Below are positions 20,282 through 27,685 of a stretch of DNA of 64,000 nucleotides, one piece after another. Each line of letters begins with the position of its first letter. Positions within the stretch are counted from its first letter, which is position 1. The stretch is taken from NCBI RefSeq assembly GCF_038397755.1, contig NZ_CP151637.1:3410001-3474000 (forward strand), read 5' to 3'. The translations under genes were made by a program, and so were the position numbers. The notes beneath the pieces were generated by a model. The model was given only the letters and a program-made list of their open reading frames with translations. It made no database searches and had not been told where the DNA came from. Source of the stretch: Microbacterium sp. LWH7-1.2 (GTDB lineage: Bacteria; Actinomycetota; Actinomycetes; Actinomycetales; Microbacteriaceae).

Positions 20282-21454
20282 ATGGACGCCACCCCTGTCC
20301 CCGTGCTCGCTCCCGTCGCCATCAGCGAAGACGAGCGCGCCGCCATCATCGAAGCCGTGCGCGAGTTCGCGCAGTCCGAACTCGCGCCGCACGCCCTGGA
20401 GTGGGACGCGGCATCGCACTTCCCCCGCGAGACGCTGCGGCTCGGCGGCGAACTCGGCCTCGGCGGGATCTACATCCGTGAGGACGTCGGCGGCTCGGGC
20501 CTCTCGCGCTCGGACGCCGCCCTGATCTTCGAGGAGCTGGCCAAGGGCGACCCCGCGATCGCCGCCTACATCTCGATCCACAACATGGTGGCGTGGATGA
20601 TCGACAGCTATGGGACCGCCGCCCAGCGCACCGAATGGCTTCCGCTGCTGACGTCCATGCAGGGCTTCGGCAGCTATTGCCTCACCGAGCCGGGTGCGGG
20701 CTCCGATGCCGCCGCCATCGTGACGAGCGCGATCCGCTCGGGCGACGACTACGTGCTGACGGGGGTCAAGCAGTTCATCTCGGGCGGGGGTGAAGCATCC
20801 GTCTACATCGTCATGGCCCGCACGGATGCCGACGCCGGCGCCCGCGGCATCACCGCGTTCCTCGTTCCGGCCGACACTCCCGGGCTCTCTTTCGGCCAGA
20901 TCGAGCACAAGATGGGCTGGAACGCCCAGCCCACGCGGCAGGTGATCCTCGACGAGGTGCGGGTTCCCGCGGCGCACATCCTCGGCGGCGAGGGCCAGGG
21001 CTTCAAGATCGCGATGTCGGCGCTCGACGGCGGCCGCATCAACATCGCCGCGTGCTCGCTCGGCGGTGCGCAGTGGGCCCTCGACCGCGCGGTGACCTAC
21101 GTGCACGAGCGGTTCACGTTCGGCGAGCCGCTCGCCGAGAAGCAGGCGGTCGTGTTCGCGCTCGCCGACATGGCCACCGAGCTGCGCGCGGCGCGCGCGC
21201 TCGTGCGGGACGCCGCCGCGGCCCTCGACGAGAAGGCTCCCGACGCCTCGATGCAGTGCGCGATGGCCAAGCGGTTCGCCACGGACGCGGGCTTCACCGT
21301 CGCGAACCAGGCGCTCCAGCTGCACGGCGGGTACGGATACCTCCACGAGTACGGGATCGAAAAGGTGGTGCGCGATCTGCGCGTGCATCAGATCCTTGAG
21401 GGGACCAACGAGATCATGCGCGTGATCATCGGCCGCCAGCTGCTCGCGCACTGA
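20282..21454 (+). CDS. Acyl-CoA dehydrogenase (short or branched chain, isobutyryl-CoA type)
   Basis: The 390-residue FAD enzyme oxidises an acyl-CoA and passes electrons to ETF. Seen are the signatures SYCLTEPGAGSDAA, GVKQFISGGGEAS, FGEPLAEKQAVVFALADM, QLHGGYGYLHEYGIEKVVRDLRVHQILEGTNEI, with the catalytic Glu373 in LEGT. 'FISGGGEA' and the adjacent 3-hydroxyisobutyrate dehydrogenase favour an isobutyryl-CoA or 2-methylacyl-CoA substrate in valine breakdown. etfBA lie 2.7 kb downstream. Confidence 0.9.
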   Translation: MDATPVPVLAPVAISEDERAAIIEAVREFAQSELAPHALEWDAASHFPRETLRLGGELGLGGIYIREDVGGSGLSRSDAALIFEELAKGDPAIAAYISIHNMVAWMIDSYGTAAQRTEWLPLLTSMQGFGSYCLTEPGAGSDAAAIVTSAIRSGDDYVLTGVKQFISGGGEASVYIVMARTDADAGARGITAFLVPADTPGLSFGQIEHKMGWNAQPTRQVILDEVRVPAAHILGGEGQGFKIAMSALDGGRINIAACSLGGAQWALDRAVTYVHERFTFGEPLAEKQAVVFALADMATELRAARALVRDAAAALDEKAPDASMQCAMAKRFATDAGFTVANQALQLHGGYGYLHEYGIEKVVRDLRVHQILEGTNEIMRVIIGRQLLAH

Positions 21455-21478: not shown

Positions 21479-22378
21479 ATGAAGATCGCATTCCTGGGGC
21501 TCGGCCACATGGGCCTGCCCATGGCGCGGAATCTCGCCGGCACCGGCCACGAGGTGGTCGGCTTCGACGTGTTCCCCGCCGCGGTCGACGCGGCGCGAGA
21601 GGCGGGGATGACCGTCGCGGAATCGGGAACGGATGCTGCCACCGCCGCGGACGTCGTCATCACCATGTTCCAGTCCGGCGCGCAGGTGCTCGACGCGTAT
21701 CGCGGAGCCGGTGGAGCCGAGGGTCTGCTCGGGGTCGCGGCATCCGGAGCACTGTTCATCGACTGCTCGACGATCGCCGTCGACGAGGCGCGCGCCGCGC
21801 ACGCGCTCGCCGAGGCGGCCGGGCACCGCTCGCTCGACGCCCCGGTGTCGGGCGGTGTGGTCGGCGCCGAGAACGCCACCCTCGCCTTCATGGTGGGCGG
21901 GACGGAGGACGACTTCGAGGCGGCCAGGCCGCTGCTCGAGGCGATGGGCCGGCGGGTCGTGCACTGCGGCGGGGCCGGGCTCGGCCAGGCCGCGAAGGTC
22001 TGCAACAACATGATCCTCGCGGTGTCGCAGATCGCGGTCGCCGAGGCGTTCGTGCTGGGAGAGCGGCTGGGGCTCTCGCACCAGGCACTCTTCGACGTCG
22101 CTTCCAACGCGTCCGGTCAGTGCTGGGCGTTGACGACGAACTGCCCGGTGCCCGGGCCGGTGCCGACGAGCCCTGCGAACCGGGACTACCAGCCCGGCTT
22201 CGCGGGCGCCCTCATGAACAAGGACCTGGGCCTCGCCGAGCAGGCGGTCCAGCTCACCGGAGTGGACGCCCGCATGGGCATGCTCGCGCGCGAGATCTAC
22301 GCGCACTACGCCGACGGCCCCGGAGCGGGTCAGGACTTCTCGGGCATCATCAACTCGATCCGCGAGTTCTCCGACTGA
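21479..22378 (+). CDS. mmsB: 3-hydroxyisobutyrate dehydrogenase
   Basis: The 299-residue NAD-dependent enzyme oxidises 3-hydroxyisobutyrate to methylmalonate semialdehyde. The Rossmann motif FLGLGHMGLPMARNL is at the N-terminus, the substrate motif DAPVSGGVVGAE at about 120, and the catalytic Lys in GQAAKVCNNMI. The C-terminal helical domain ends with the DFSGIINSI typical of the family. A GAGGAGGTCC Shine-Dalgarno precedes the ATG. It follows the acyl-CoA dehydrogenase by 24 bases, forming an operon for valine catabolism. Confidence 0.92.
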   Translation: MKIAFLGLGHMGLPMARNLAGTGHEVVGFDVFPAAVDAAREAGMTVAESGTDAATAADVVITMFQSGAQVLDAYRGAGGAEGLLGVAASGALFIDCSTIAVDEARAAHALAEAAGHRSLDAPVSGGVVGAENATLAFMVGGTEDDFEAARPLLEAMGRRVVHCGGAGLGQAAKVCNNMILAVSQIAVAEAFVLGERLGLSHQALFDVASNASGQCWALTTNCPVPGPVPTSPANRDYQPGFAGALMNKDLGLAEQAVQLTGVDARMGMLAREIYAHYADGPGAGQDFSGIINSIREFSD

Positions 22379-22520: not shown

Positions 22521-23321
22521 ATGACCGAGCATCACGCGCACGAGTCCACCGAGTACGAGACCATCCTGGTCGAGACCCGCGGCCGGGTGGGGTGGATCAC
22601 GCTCAACCGGCCGGAGGCGCTCAACGCGCTGAACTCGCAGGTGTGCCGCGACGTCGTGGCCGCGGCATCCGTCTTCGATGCCGATGAGCAGATCGGCGCC
22701 ATCGTGCTGACCGGCTCGGAGCGCGCGTTCGCCGCCGGCGCAGACATCAAGGAGATGGAGTCCAAGTCGGGGCTCGAGATGCTGATGGGCGACCACTTCG
22801 GCGGCTGGACGCAGTTCGCCGCCGTGCGCACGCCGGTGATCGCGGCCGTCTCGGGCTACGCCCTGGGCGGCGGGTGCGAGCTGGCGATGATGTGCGACAT
22901 CATCCTCGCCGCCGACACCGCCAAGTTCGGCCAGCCCGAGATCAACCTCGGAGTCATCCCGGGCATGGGCGGTTCGCAGCGCCTCCTCCGCGCCGTCGGC
23001 TACTACAAGGCCGCCGAGCTCATCCTCACCGGACGGATGATGGATGCTGCGGAAGCCGAGCGCGCCGGACTCGTCTCGCGTGTCGTGCCCGCGGCCGACC
23101 TGCTGACCGAGGCGCAGAAGACGGCCGATACCATCGCGTCGAAGAGCCTGCCGTCGCTGTATGCAGCGAAGGCGGTGCTGGATGCTGCGCTCGAGACCCC
23201 GATGGCCGAGGGTCTGCGCCTCGAGAAGCACGTGTTCGCGAGCCTCTTCGACACCGAGGATCAGAAGGAGGGCATGGCCGCCTTCCGCGAGAAGCGCGCC
23301 CCCGAGTTCACGGGCCGGTGA
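22521..23321 (+). CDS. Enoyl-CoA hydratase
   Basis: The 266-residue crotonase-family enzyme hydrates a 2-enoyl-CoA. Oxyanion-hole motifs [10 protein letters not shown] and [17 protein letters not shown] are present, as are both catalytic Glu residues, in GGCELAMM and [19 protein letters not shown]. It matches the short-chain EchA8-like group. In the valine pathway it would hydrate methacrylyl-CoA; the CoA hydrolase of that pathway is not in view, so the full assignment is inference. Confidence 0.9.
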
Positions 23322-23344: not shown

Positions 23345-23432
23345 GAGGCGTCTCGACTGCGGGCGCTGGAGCGAGCGAGGAGCGCGGTCGTTGAGCGAGC
23401 CTGCGAGTCGAAACGCAGAGTCGAAACGCCTC
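23345..23432. repeat. Palindromic element GAGGCGTYTCGACT
   Basis: GAGGCGTCTCGACT (23345-23358) pairs with AGTCGAAACGCCTC (23419-23432) with one mismatch. The spacer is rich in the words 'gagcgag' and 'cgttgagcgagcc', and a second AGTCGAAACGC copy begins at 23406. The element fills the gap between two converging genes, a common place for REP-like sequences. It may also end transcription on both strands. Confidence 0.5.
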
Positions 23433-23461: not shown

Positions 23462-23998
23462 TCAGAGGGGGTCGGGCTGGGGCCTCGGCTCGGTGAAGTC
23501 GCCGGCGTCCTTGCGGAAGCGCGCGATGATGCGCACGAGCTCCGTCGTGTCGGCGTCCGACAGCCCCGGATCCTCGAAGACCTCAGTGTTGAGCGCCGCG
23601 GTCGCGCGCTCCACGAGCTCGCGGCCGGAGTCGGTGAGGACGAGCATCGCGGCGCGCCCGTCGCCGGGGTGCGGCTCGCGCGAGACGAGGCCGTCGCGGG
23701 CGAGGCGGTCCACGGTGTTCGTGACGCTGGTCGGATGCACCTGCAGGCGGGCGATGGCGCTGGCCATCGGCATCCGTCCCTCTCTCGTGAAGCCGAGGAG
23801 GCGCAGCATCTCGTATCGCGCGAACGACAGGCCGAACGGCTTCAGCGCGGTGTCGATGCGCGCGAACAGCAGCTGCTGCGCGCGGATGATCGACGTCACG
23901 GCGGTCATGCCCGCGGCGGCGTCCTCCCAGCCATGGGCGATCCACTGGCGCTTGGCCTCGGCGATCGGGTCGACCGGAAGACGCTTGGGTGCTGCCAT
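23462..23998 (-). CDS. MarR-family regulator
   Basis: The 178-residue protein starts at ATG 23998 behind GGCAGGAGGAGGTCGTC. A long N-terminal helix region is followed by a winged helix (LSFARYEMLRLLGFTREGRMPMASAIARLQVHPTSVTNTVDRLARDGLVSREPHPGDGRAAMLVLTDSGRELV), the classic MarR DNA-binding lobe with its wing Asp-Arg pair. It is divergent from etfBA with a 180-base shared upstream region and converges on the branched-chain acyl-CoA genes, so it may control either set. Confidence 0.88.
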   Translation of the reverse strand: MAAPKRLPVDPIAEAKRQWIAHGWEDAAAGMTAVTSIIRAQQLLFARIDTALKPFGLSFARYEMLRLLGFTREGRMPMASAIARLQVHPTSVTNTVDRLARDGLVSREPHPGDGRAAMLVLTDSGRELVERATAALNTEVFEDPGLSDADTTELVRIIARFRKDAGDFTEPRPQPDPL

Positions 23999-24074
23999 GA
24001 CGACCTCCTCCTGCCCACCGTATCGGTCCGGCGGCGTCGCGATGGACGACGGATGCCGCAAATCGGTGCTTTAT

Positions 24075-24177: not shown

Positions 24178-24954
24178 ATGAAGATCGTCGTCCTGGTCAA
24201 GGAAGTCCCGGATACCTATGGGGATCGCAGGCTGTCGCTCGAGACCGGCCTGGCCGATCGCGCCGCGAGCGAGACCGTGCTCGACGAGATCGGTGAGCGC
24301 GCGCTCGAGGTGGCGCTCTCGTACGCCGACAACACGCCGGGTACGGAGGTCGTCGTGCTCTCGATGACGCCGGAATCGGCGTCGGCGACGGTGCGCAAGG
24401 GGCTCGCGATGGGCGCCTCGTCGGCCGTGCAGGTGGTGGATGAGGGCCTCCTCGGTGCCGATCTGGGGCTGACCGCGGAGGTGCTGGCGGCGGCGCTGCA
24501 GCGCACCGGTTTCGATCTGGTGATCGGCGGCAACCTGTCGACGGACGGGGTGGGCGGGATCGTCCCGGCGATGGTGGCCGAGATCCTCGACGTGCCGTCG
24601 GCGACGTACCTGAGCGCGGTCGAGATCCGCGAGGGCGAGGTGCTGGGCACGCGGGCATCCGACGGGGCGACGCTGCAGGTGACGGCGGCGCTGCCGGCGG
24701 TGATCTCGATCACCGAGGCCCTGCCCGACGCGCGGTTTCCGAATTTCAAGGGCATCATGGCGGCGAAGAAGAAGCCGTTCGAGACGCTCTCGCTCGCCGA
24801 GCTCGAGATCGACCCGCACACCCCCGACGCATCGCGGTCGATCGTGATCGCGCTCAGCGAGAAGCCGCCGCGCGAGGCCGGTGTGAAGATCGTCGACGAG
24901 GGGGACGCGGGTCAGAAGCTCGCGGACTTCCTCATCCAGAACCGGCTCGCGTGA
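24178..24954 (+). CDS. etfB: Electron transfer flavoprotein beta subunit
   Basis: The 258-residue small subunit of ETF accepts electrons from acyl-CoA dehydrogenases. It begins [20 protein letters not shown] and has [28 protein letters not shown] and the family '[38 protein letters not shown]' block, where the last part is the recognition loop for partner dehydrogenases. GAGGAGACC precedes the ATG. etfA follows after 10 bases. Confidence 0.95.
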
Positions 24955-24964
24955 GGAACCGCAC

Positions 24965-25930
24965 ATGACGTTCGCAGATGACTCGATCCTGGTCCTTCTC
25001 GACACCACGCCGTCGGGCGGGCTCGCCAAGACGGCGGCCGAGCTGCTGGGGGCTGCCGCCTCGGTGGGCACCCCGGTCGCGGTGATCGTCGGCGACCCCG
25101 CTCTGGCGACGGATGCTGCGGCCCTCGGCGCCGCGTCGGTGCTGGTCGCGCCGGCCGGCGACGGGCTGACTGTCCCGCGGGTGGACGCGCTGACGGAGGC
25201 TGCCGACCTGGTCCGGCCCGACGCGATCCTGGTGGCCAACTCGGTGGAGGGCCGTGAGGTCGCCGGCCGGTACGCCGCGCGTACCCGGTCGGGCGTCGCG
25301 GTCGACGCGGTCGGCGTCTCGCGGGACGCGGAGGGCGTCGTCGCGCATCATTCGGTGTACGGCGGTGCGTACAACGTCGACTCGGCCGTCACGTGGGGCG
25401 CTCCGGTCATCACGATCCGCCAGGGATCGATCGACGCCCGCGCCGAGGCGGTGACGGGCGTCGAGGCCGAGCCGCTCGAGGTGCGTGCGTCCGGCCGCAA
25501 GGCGGCGAGCGTGGTGTCGGTGGACGAGGCGGTGGTGTCGTCGTCGCGTCCCGAGCTGCGCGGCGCGGCGAAGGTGGTGTCGGGCGGGCGCGGGCTCGGG
25601 TCGGGCGACAAGTTCGCCCTCGTCGAGCAGCTGGCCGACGCGCTCGGCGCCGCCGTGGGCGCGTCGCGCGCCGCGGTCGACGCCGGCTACGTGCCGTACT
25701 CGTACCAGGTCGGGCAGACCGGTGTGTCGGTGTCGCCCCAGCTGTACGTGGCGCTCGGCATCTCTGGCGCGATCCAGCACAAGGCCGGAATGCAGACCGC
25801 GAAGACGATCGTGGCGATCAACAAGGACGCGGACGCCCCCATCTTCGAGATCGCGGACTTCGGCGTCGTCGGCGACCTGTTCACGGTCGTGCCGCAGCTG
25901 ATCGCCGCGCTCGAGGCGAAGAAGGCGTAA
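24965..25930 (+). CDS. etfA: Electron transfer flavoprotein alpha subunit
   Basis: The 321-residue large subunit holds the redox FAD. The C-terminal FAD domain shows [103 protein letters not shown], all core ETF-alpha motifs including the GISGAIQH segment and the final DLF..VP. The N-terminal half is shorter and looser than in classical ETF, as is common. It is followed six bases later by the cytochrome b protein. Confidence 0.95.
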
Positions 25931-25936
25931 CCCGGG

Positions 25937-27685
25937 ATGGCGACGTTCGGTTCCTCGGTGCGGCGCGGTCTGCCGCGCGTGCCCGGCGGCGAGCCCTGGC
26001 CCCCTGCCGGCGCCGCGCCCGGCGCGAACGGCAACGGCACCGCGCCCTCGGAGGCGCCGGTGGTCGAGGGGGCGCAACACGCGGCACCGGCGGAGCCGAC
26101 GCCGCGTGTCGCGACCCCCGAGGTCGCAGCCGTTGCCCCTGAGTCCGCGCAGGTGGCCCCACACGCGGGAACCGAGGCTGCGGCCTCGAGCATCGCGGCC
26201 CCCGGCGCGCCGGCGCCCGGCGCGCGGACCGTGCGTCGCGGGCTTCCGCGTGTGCCGGGCGGCGAGCCGTGGCCGCCGGCCGGTGTTGCCCCGTCCGCGG
26301 CGGGCGTCGCCGCGGCGGAGGCGGCAGCTGTCACCGCCACCGAGCCCGCCACCCGGCCAGACGTGACACCTGCACGGCCTGCGGTCGAAGAGAAGGTGGC
26401 ACCTGTGGTCGCCGCAGGCGCGGGGACCACGCCGGAGGTGACACCTTCGGTGGCGCGCGACGGGGCGAAGACCCTCCGACGCGGGCTTCCACGCGTCGCC
26501 GGCGGTGAGCCGTGGCCGCCGGCGGGTCTTGCGCCGATCGCCGCAGCTGCAGCGGTGACGGATGCCGCGCCCGCGCCGGTTGCGGAAGCACCGGCGGAGG
26601 CAGCCGCCGAGGTGGCAGCATCCGTCCCCATCGAAACCGTGGCGCCCGCGGCGCCCGCCACCGCCACCGGCACCCCGCTGTCTCAGCCGCTGCCGTTCCG
26701 GCGCACGGTGTGGGCGGGCAGGGCCGCGCGCACCCGCCCGGCGGCCAGGCCCGAGCCCCAGCGCATCGGGCCGTTCACCCGCGGCCAGTGGGCCGGCGCG
26801 GTGATCGTGGGCGGCGCCGGGCTGCTGTACGCGGCGGGCATGGCGGTGTTCGCGGTCCGCTGGCTGCTCTCGACGCAGTGGGGCGTGGACTTCCTCGCGG
26901 CCTATCCCGGCGAGTATCACCTGCCCGAGGGGGCGCCGGTCGGCATCCCCGCGTGGCTGGGGTGGCAGCACTTCTTCAACGTGTTCCTGATGGTGCTGAT
27001 CATCCGCAGCGGTCTGCAGGTGCGCACCGACAAGAGACCGAGCGTGTTCTGGTCGCCGCGCAACAACGGCCGCCGCAAGATGAGCCTGAACCTGTGGTTC
27101 CACCAGTCGCTCGACATCCTGTGGATCGTGAACGGCGTGATCTTCGTGGCGCTGCTGTTCGTGACCGGGCAGTGGATGAAGATCGTGCCCACGTCGTGGG
27201 AGGTGTTCCCCAACGCGGTCTCGGCGGCGCTGCAGTACGTGTCGCTGGACTGGCCCACCGAGAACGGGTGGGTGAACTACAACTCGCTGCAGCAGCTCGC
27301 GTATTTCGCCACGGTGTTCCTCGCCGCGCCGCTCGCGATCGCCACGGGAGTGCGGATGAGCCACGTCTGGCCGAAGAACGCGACCGGGCTGAACAGGGCG
27401 TACCCGGTCGAGTGGGCCCGCGCGGTGCACTTCCCGGTGATGCTCTACTTCGTGGCGTTCATCGCCGTGCACGTGTTCCTCGTCTTCGCGACCGGGGCGC
27501 TGCGCAACCTCAACCACATGTACGCGGCGCAGGGCTCGGTCGATCCGAACGCCTACGCCGACAACTGGACCGGTTTCTGGTTCTTCGCCCTGTCGCTGGT
27601 CGTGATCGCCGCCGCCTGGGTGGCTGCGCGCCCGCTCGTGCTGGCGCCGATCGCCCGCCTCTTCGGCAAGGTCTCGGGCCGCTGA
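25937..27685 (+). CDS. Membrane cytochrome b-type protein with three RRGLPR..GGEPWPPAG motifs, ETF-linked
   Basis: The 582-residue protein has two parts. Residues 1 to about 270 are Ala/Pro-rich and probably disordered, with three copies of RRGLPR(VP/VA)GGEPWPPAG at about 9-25, 100-116 and 181-197. Residues about 276-575 form six membrane segments with paired His residues suited to two b-hemes (WQHFFN, WFHQSLD, RAVHFPV, AVHVFLV), as in cytochrome b561/b6-like domains (formate dehydrogenase gamma or Ni-Fe hydrogenase type). It starts six bases after etfA, so it is in the same operon. A role in passing ETF electrons to menaquinone is inferred; the family itself only implies quinone-linked electron transfer. 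A partner that binds the motif is not known to me. Confidence 0.75.
   Translation: MATFGSSVRRGLPRVPGGEPWPPAGAAPGANGNGTAPSEAPVVEGAQHAAPAEPTPRVATPEVAAVAPESAQVAPHAGTEAAASSIAAPGAPAPGARTVRRGLPRVPGGEPWPPAGVAPSAAGVAAAEAAAVTATEPATRPDVTPARPAVEEKVAPVVAAGAGTTPEVTPSVARDGAKTLRRGLPRVAGGEPWPPAGLAPIAAAAAVTDAAPAPVAEAPAEAAAEVAASVPIETVAPAAPATATGTPLSQPLPFRRTVWAGRAARTRPAARPEPQRIGPFTRGQWAGAVIVGGAGLLYAAGMAVFAVRWLLSTQWGVDFLAAYPGEYHLPEGAPVGIPAWLGWQHFFNVFLMVLIIRSGLQVRTDKRPSVFWSPRNNGRRKMSLNLWFHQSLDILWIVNGVIFVALLFVTGQWMKIVPTSWEVFPNAVSAALQYVSLDWPTENGWVNYNSLQQLAYFATVFLAAPLAIATGVRMSHVWPKNATGLNRAYPVEWARAVHFPVMLYFVAFIAVHVFLVFATGALRNLNHMYAAQGSVDPNAYADNWTGFWFFALSLVVIAAAWVAARPLVLAPIARLFGKVSGR

Follow-up and report, generated by a model that had tools for sequence, protein, structure and literature searches.

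Structure of the etfBA-cytochrome b operon

The window analyzed here, a 64,000-nucleotide stretch of the Microbacterium sp. LWH7-1.2 genome (4.45 Mb in a single contig, NZ_CP151637.1; positions 3,410,001 to 3,474,000), contains three genes in one tight operon on the + strand: etfB (24178..24954; 258 amino acids; PF01012, 91.9 bits) and etfA (24965..25930; 321 amino acids; PF00766, 111.9 bits, and PF01012, 63.3 bits) for the β- and α-subunits of electron transfer flavoprotein (ETF), and a gene for a cytochrome b with a motif-bearing tail (25937..27685; 582 amino acids). The ATG of the last gene follows the stop codon of etfA after six bases (25931-25936), as the first-pass annotation had stated. 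From the sequence, we propose, with a probability of roughly 0.7, that this cytochrome is an unrecognised type of ETF:menaquinone oxidoreductase, in which a bare diheme cytochrome b replaces EtfD or ETF:quinone oxidoreductase (ETF-QO) and carries an ETF-tethering tail.

The cytochrome open reading frame (ORF) matched Ni_hydr_CYTB/PF01292 with 33.5 bits (Pfam cut-off, 30.1), and this was the only Pfam profile above its cut-off; CCG, 4Fe-4S, Fer4_ETF_QO, and FAD domains were not found. The operon contained no gene for an Fe-S electron-transfer subunit, the cytochrome gene being preceded by etfBA and followed by an ORF on the opposite strand. Six transmembrane (TM) helices were predicted, supported by structural models and a 60-row alignment: they include the four-helix core of PF01292 (residues 343-523; 26963..27505, + strand), delimited by the Pfam span, and an extra N-terminal helix (TM1, residues 282-312; 26780..26872, + strand) outside the PF01292/FdnI core. 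Four histidines in the core (His345, 389, 498, and 512) were invariant in this alignment and are the proposed heme b ligands, two b hemes being expected, in agreement with the six-helix di-heme domain recognized at the outset. The best fold match by Foldseek was FdnI (residues 84-288 of the cytochrome model aligned with 8-194 of FdnI), while the cytochrome domain, searched against PDB sequences, gave no match at E values up to 1. The closest named relatives, among the matches listed, were from Microbacterium, and existing database labels for the protein are "cytochrome b/b6 domain-containing" and "thiosulfate reductase cytochrome b subunit".

The remaining N-terminal part (residues 1-281; 25937..26779, + strand) is an Ala/Pro-rich tail predicted to be disordered and assigned to the cytoplasmic side by a positive-inside charge count. 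Its AlphaFold2 predicted local distance difference test score (pLDDT) was below 50 to about residue 262 (residues 319-586 of a model in which EtfA continues into the cytochrome), so that the disorder described earlier held, with the tail now placed at the N-terminus. Three copies of a motif of the form RRGLPRxxGGEPWPPAG are found in it (all + strand), starting at residue 8 (VRRGLPRVPGGEPWPPAG; 25958..26011), residue 99 (VRRGLPRVPGGEPWPPAG; 26231..26284), and residue 180 (LRRGLPRVAGGEPWPPAG; 26474..26527). The spacing between starts is 91 and then 81 residues, and motifs 1 and 2 have the same protein sequence; the near-identity and spacing originally reported were therefore reproduced. Pairwise comparison of the three copies shows 6-11 synonymous changes per 54 nucleotides and 0-4 changes in residue-altering codons.

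Motif conservation was analyzed in 92 tails, each 100 amino acids or longer, comprising the window's own tail and those of ETF-linked relatives (shorter or edge-cut tails, tails without ETF, and that of locus L013, described below, were omitted). RGLPR occurred 228 times in these tails and 0.07 times on average (at most once) in 200 rounds of shuffling; the repetition is therefore not due to chance. When GLPR alone served as the seed (260 sites), conservation in the flanking columns was strong: 100% for R at -2, 88% for R at -1, 90 and 93% for the two G, 87% for E or D, 94% for W, and 96% for the P after it; all columns outside -3 to +14 were below 1 bit. GLPR was present in three copies in 66 tails, two in 17, four in 7, and none in 2, with a spacing of 23-169 (median, 80). 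In a separate count, 120 listed of 2250 homologs contained three (74 rows), two (25), one (14), or no (7) matches to RG.P...GG.PW, and each of the seven motif-free chains was at most 485 amino acids long. When the genome was scanned with the pattern GGNGGNGARCCNTGGCCN, seven of the eight forward sites were located in the tails of three cytochrome copies (see below); the eighth, in L015, had no RGLPR ahead of it in any frame.

Distribution of the cytochrome, its motif, and known ETF oxidants

Among 150 Microbacteriaceae genomes (the family sample), ETF_alpha was detected above the cut-off in 41, with one further genome below it, and a cytochrome match was found in 73, including all 41 ETF-bearing genomes. 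The cytochrome gene was located downstream of ETF on the same strand within 3 kb in 51 of 55 ETF loci; the other four were a decayed remnant in the present genome (see below), G038 (with a shortened ETF_alpha match), G018, and the third locus of G064. The ETF-QO profile (PF05187) matched nothing in the present genome or in any of the 150 family genomes, extending to the whole genome the earlier remark that no ETF-QO was in view; it gave matches in 3 of 14 control genomes. Full-length EtfD was also not found in any of the 150 genomes: a same-order EtfD query matched in four of them (at best 30% identity over 262 query residues) and had no match in the present genome, in which the only CCG-domain protein found was a FAD-linked oxidase fusion. 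An ordinary EtfD or ETF-QO elsewhere in the genome, which the first-pass annotation had named as evidence that would speak against its reading, was thus found neither with the profile nor with the EtfD query.

The same relationship was examined in 119 genomes of the order, with a close cytochrome defined as E <1e-80 and a clear EtfD as E <1e-100. A cytochrome match was present in 26 genomes (close in 22) and a clear EtfD in 38, with no overlap between the 22 and the 38 (Fisher p = 9e-5, kinship ignored); the sole genome with both a clear EtfD and any cytochrome match (G255) had a distant cytochrome (34%). Twelve of the 22 close cytochromes were shown to adjoin etfBA, none of them in a genome with a clear EtfD (p = 0.009, kinship ignored), nine had no ETF beside them, and the remaining one (G299), which has the motif, was cut at a contig/locus edge. 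Within the genus g137, three genomes (L252-L254) had etfBA-cytochrome with RRGLPRxxGG[D/E]PWPPEG tails but had no clear EtfD; a tail-less EtfD was present in four others (L256-L259), which gave no cytochrome match; and one (L255) possessed a short-tailed cytochrome with no ETF adjoining. Because of the adjacency to ETF, the co-occurrence with it across genomes, the failure to find ETF-QO and full-length EtfD, and the lack of co-occurrence with EtfD, the putative function as a membrane electron acceptor for ETF, already suggested on first inspection, is well supported by genomics.

The motif was scored in a set of named relatives (the best 80 of 574, and therefore biased toward close kin) and order-level loci: 12 of 102 loci were edge-cut and dropped (nine of these show the motif), and 90 were scored. 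Of these loci, 71 were ETF-linked with the motif, two were ETF-linked without it, 16 had neither, and one had the motif without ETF. Of the two ETF-linked exceptions, L155 carries the variant RRRGLP, and L222 is a row for which the start of the tail was not called; the motif without ETF (L209) is on a contig of a metagenome-assembled genome where the cytochrome comes directly after the first 36 residues of etfB, and looks like a deletion or misassembly. ETF-linked motif tails were found in Agromyces, Arthrobacter, Sinomonas, Glutamicibacter, and Cryobacterium, among others.

The 45 ETF-linked loci of the family sample contained the motif in 23 by script and, on inspection, in L027 and L047. 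A frame break or masked bases were observed in the tails of these two otherwise conserved operons, possibly reflecting sequencing trouble in low-complexity GC-rich DNA. Thirty-three further family loci had neither ETF linkage nor the motif; L031, scored "no ETF" by the script because of two identical copies, has the motif (L032 was omitted because it overlaps L031). Tails occurred in several forms: some have the full motif, and L025 has RRGLPR without GGEPWP; RRGLG is found once in L041 and twice in L055, R-x-RMG repeats occur in L056 (scored as motif-less), and other tails are short and motif-free. In a phylogenetic tree, one clade of 20 motif-bearing rows was recovered (support, 95/94), with four changes of motif label overall; L027 was labeled motif-bearing, and L047 motif-less even though its motif lies behind the frame break/masked bases. 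A comparison of ETF sequences yielded residues that distinguish loci with the motif from those without it, but these differences are confounded by phylogeny and were set aside.

Gene settings of the operon copies

Upstream of the operon, the window contains genes (annotated by Pfam) for an acyl-CoA dehydrogenase, the likely electron donor to ETF (20282..21454, + strand), a 3-hydroxyisobutyrate-dehydrogenase-like protein of valine catabolism (21479..22378, + strand; PF03446 and PF14833), an enoyl-CoA hydratase (22521..23321, + strand; PF00378), and a MarR-family regulator divergent from etfB (23462..24001, - strand; PF12802 and PF01047). This is a valine/acyl-CoA setting, a context in which ETF is needed.

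A second etfB-etfA-cytochrome operon was found in the same genome (L013, 10796-14264), preceded by genes for ATP-binding cassette (ABC) transporters and an amidase (both identified by eye), a flavoprotein similar to Old Yellow Enzyme (OYE)/trimethylamine dehydrogenase, and an acyl-CoA ligase. The two cytochromes are 89% identical overall (326 of 331 residues in the membrane domain), and all three motifs are kept with 54 of 54 residues identical, whereas the linkers between them are identical at 42 of 59 (linker 1) and 23 of 56 (linker 2) positions, with gaps; the segment running from motif 3 up to residue 251 matches at 53 of 54. The second operon points to a recent duplication, with the copy then taken up by a different catabolic cluster. 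A third copy is a decayed remnant (about 7222-7791 of L014) consisting of the 3' end of etfA and the 5' end of the cytochrome gene with one full motif, the first, and is adjoined by IS-like/transposase-like ORFs (insertion sequence, IS; identified by eye) at about 8500-10650 of L014. Since the operon copies sit in different gene settings, the etfBA-cytochrome module appears to be portable, serving different dehydrogenases. With regard to linker 2 of L013, part of it is 97% identical to a 62-nucleotide intergenic stretch of the window (23369-23430, with GGTCGTTGAGCGAGC), and stretches like VVERAGESKRRDETP also occur in the tail of another Microbacterium (P0024).

Proposed electron route and comparison with known systems

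Electron transfer from acyl-CoA dehydrogenase to ETF is established. In the route proposed here, each of the usually three RRGLPRxxGG[E/D]PWPPA hooks would most likely hold one ETF near the cytochrome, raising its local concentration; the reduced ETF flavin would then donate electrons to the heme on the cytoplasmic side, from which they would cross the membrane to the second heme, as follows from the diheme fold, and, possibly at the outer face, reach menaquinone, which these bacteria use as their quinone. A function of the motif as a docking tether, with ETF as the likeliest partner, is plausible because the motif is predicted on the cytoplasmic side, goes together with ETF linkage, and resembles the design of the mycobacterial EtfD tail.

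As described in PMC13083937, EtfD (EMO, 9OJN) of Mycobacterium smegmatis is a one-heme protein with a linear/noncubane Fe-S cluster and a disordered C-terminal region of ~30 kDa containing conserved interspersed repeats, through which, an AlphaFold3 model suggests, it meets ETF; this region is short or absent in FadF and DgcB. In design, the tail predicted for the cytochrome resembles that of EtfD in being disordered, rich in Ala and Pro, and furnished with several basic-GL motifs, although the motif sequences are not significantly alike (see below). On the other hand, EtfD combines two CCG domains, two 4Fe-4S domains, and a single b heme with five TM helices and a tail at the C-terminus, whereas Pfam sees no Fe-S domain in the cytochrome, whose four histidines are invariant, whose tail is N-terminal, and for which six TM helices are predicted. 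ETF-QO (ETFDH) shares the proposed reaction with the cytochrome, in which its characteristic Fer4_ETF_QO and FAD domains were not found. Five KGLGIA-type repeats were present in the EtfD tails of L135 and L136 (family f6, taken as mycobacterial), and the KGLGMKGAAKAPG type in L137; since most other actinobacterial EtfD tails (30 + 8 loci) had no KGL repeats, repeated tails are not universal in EtfD. A different repeat (GGSLFD/SLFD) was observed in the long tail of EtfD from L138 (G194, family f29); it may be that more ETF dehydrogenases have disordered tails of this repeated kind, built on several types of motif.

Homology between the motif and the EtfD repeats was considered and rejected: the 18-residue consensus matched them no better than shuffled sequences, which were as good in 17688 (L135), 2060 (L137), and 10207 (L138) of 20000 trials. 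For the variant tails, shuffles were as good in 95 (RRGLG of L041), 1310 (L055), and 354 (L056) of 5000. We do not claim a shared origin and treat the [KR]GL likeness as a lead. Convergence is more likely than descent, given that the two proteins are unrelated and carry their tails at opposite ends.

The FdnI/HyaC cytochromes b (PF01292; 1KQF chain C and 6G94) share the four-helix core and four histidines with the cytochrome. They differ from it in that the cytochrome has extra TM1 and TM6, a motif tail, and no Fe-S partner gene beside it, and its core appears to be inverted in the membrane relative to FdnI. In succinate-quinone reductase, the donor is a cytoplasmic flavoprotein complex, and the fold family differs from that of the cytochrome. 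Two b hemes are common to both (in the cytochrome, as expected), and with differing donors the analogy is one of mechanism only: in the Bacillus subtilis enzyme, electron transfer across the membrane through the diheme cytochrome b is facilitated by membrane potential, according to PMC4807273. By this analogy, the boldest part of the proposal is that menaquinone reduction at the outer side may be assisted by membrane potential. A more far-reaching version is doubtful, namely that this is a third independent class of ETF:menaquinone oxidoreductase, in which an FdnI-type cytochrome was flipped by the extra N-terminal helix, so that the input heme is cytoplasmic and the quinone site outside, membrane potential helps to drive the uphill transfer from ETF to low-potential menaquinone, and ETF-catching tails with a similar [KR]GL core arose separately here and on EtfD. 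No open-access PubMed Central (PMC) paper with the motif string was found, and an open-access PMC search on ETF, menaquinone, and cytochrome b gave, judging by titles and abstract starts of the matches listed, no description of this cytochrome as an ETF oxidant.

Several observations weigh against the cytochrome being an ETF:menaquinone oxidoreductase with an ETF tether. Direct flavin-to-heme transfer without an Fe-S relay is unlike both known ETF dehydrogenases (EtfD and ETF-QO), and the Foldseek E value for FdnI was only 0.1. In the family sample, 40 of 91 cytochrome matches (the most distant rows of the search being omitted) were not beside ETF, and such ETF-less relatives mean that other partners exist for relatives of the cytochrome. 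As for the nine close cytochromes of the order that were not linked to ETF, their genomes may simply have no ETF, in which case the exclusion of EtfD would partly reflect no need for it. Within the cytochrome family, the relatives without an ETF neighbor or motif tail comprise orphans up to 59% identical (L050) and extended forms 43-49% identical (L095-L098, L103, and L104), the latter having a C-terminal extension of about 200 amino acids in the same ORF; in L095, the extension contains an Oxidored_molyb/Moco domain (PF00174), with a narG-like ORF (by eye) alongside. This fusion of a distant relative to a molybdopterin oxidoreductase domain, together with the 40 unlinked matches, would fit a cytochrome that passes electrons in reverse, from quinol to ETF, or serves an unrelated oxidoreductase, with operon linkage reflecting co-regulation only; we consider this quite unlikely, since ETF linkage holds in several families of the order, and neither the ETF-QO profile nor the EtfD query revealed another ETF oxidant in the 150 family genomes.

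With regard to the tail, the motif (RGLPR/RRGLG-type) was missing from 20 of the 45 ETF-linked family loci, and because of this, we regard it as an accessory addition to a working ETF-linked cytochrome and not its core. These motif-free loci, and the two freely varying linkers, one of which holds the intergenic repeat, are also what would be expected if the motifs were non-binding spacers or duplication relics. This explanation is very unlikely: the motif columns stay conserved (94% for W and 100% for R at -2) among surrounding columns below 1 bit, most differences between the copies in one gene are synonymous, and the motifs are unchanged between the two operons whereas the linkers are not (although the stretch after motif 3 is also nearly identical).

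Modeling with EtfA, one of the two ETF subunits with which the first-pass annotation suggested modeling the motif, did not bear out docking: in the AlphaFold2 model in which EtfA runs on into the cytochrome, the tail was undocked, with a pLDDT of 33-39 in the motif blocks, although the absence of EtfB and the poorly folded domain II of EtfA make this a weak test. This failure to place the motif on EtfA leaves some room for a cytochrome that takes electrons from ETF and whose motifs bind acyl-CoA dehydrogenases or other catabolic enzymes, forming a membrane-side metabolon. The second operon, located in a different flavin dehydrogenase cluster, keeps the three motifs unchanged, pointing to a partner common to both settings; however, ETF is the one partner that both settings share, also common to nearly all motif-bearing loci, and the unrelated EtfD has a repeated disordered tail as well, modeled by others (PMC13083937) as contacting ETF. 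A metabolon is therefore improbable, and tethering of ETF remains our preferred interpretation.

Beyond what was recognized initially, the present analysis adds the near-constant adjacency of the cytochrome to ETF in the family sample, where no other ETF oxidant was found, the lack of co-occurrence with EtfD in the order, and the independent parallel to the tether in EtfD. A recurring trick is suggested, in which disordered tails with repeated hooks are attached to ETF dehydrogenases, and this bears on how EtfD meets ETF. If the proposal is correct, oxidation of ETF by hemes without an Fe-S relay would be possible, and the missing ETF oxidant would be named for ETF-bearing Microbacteriaceae and several related families.

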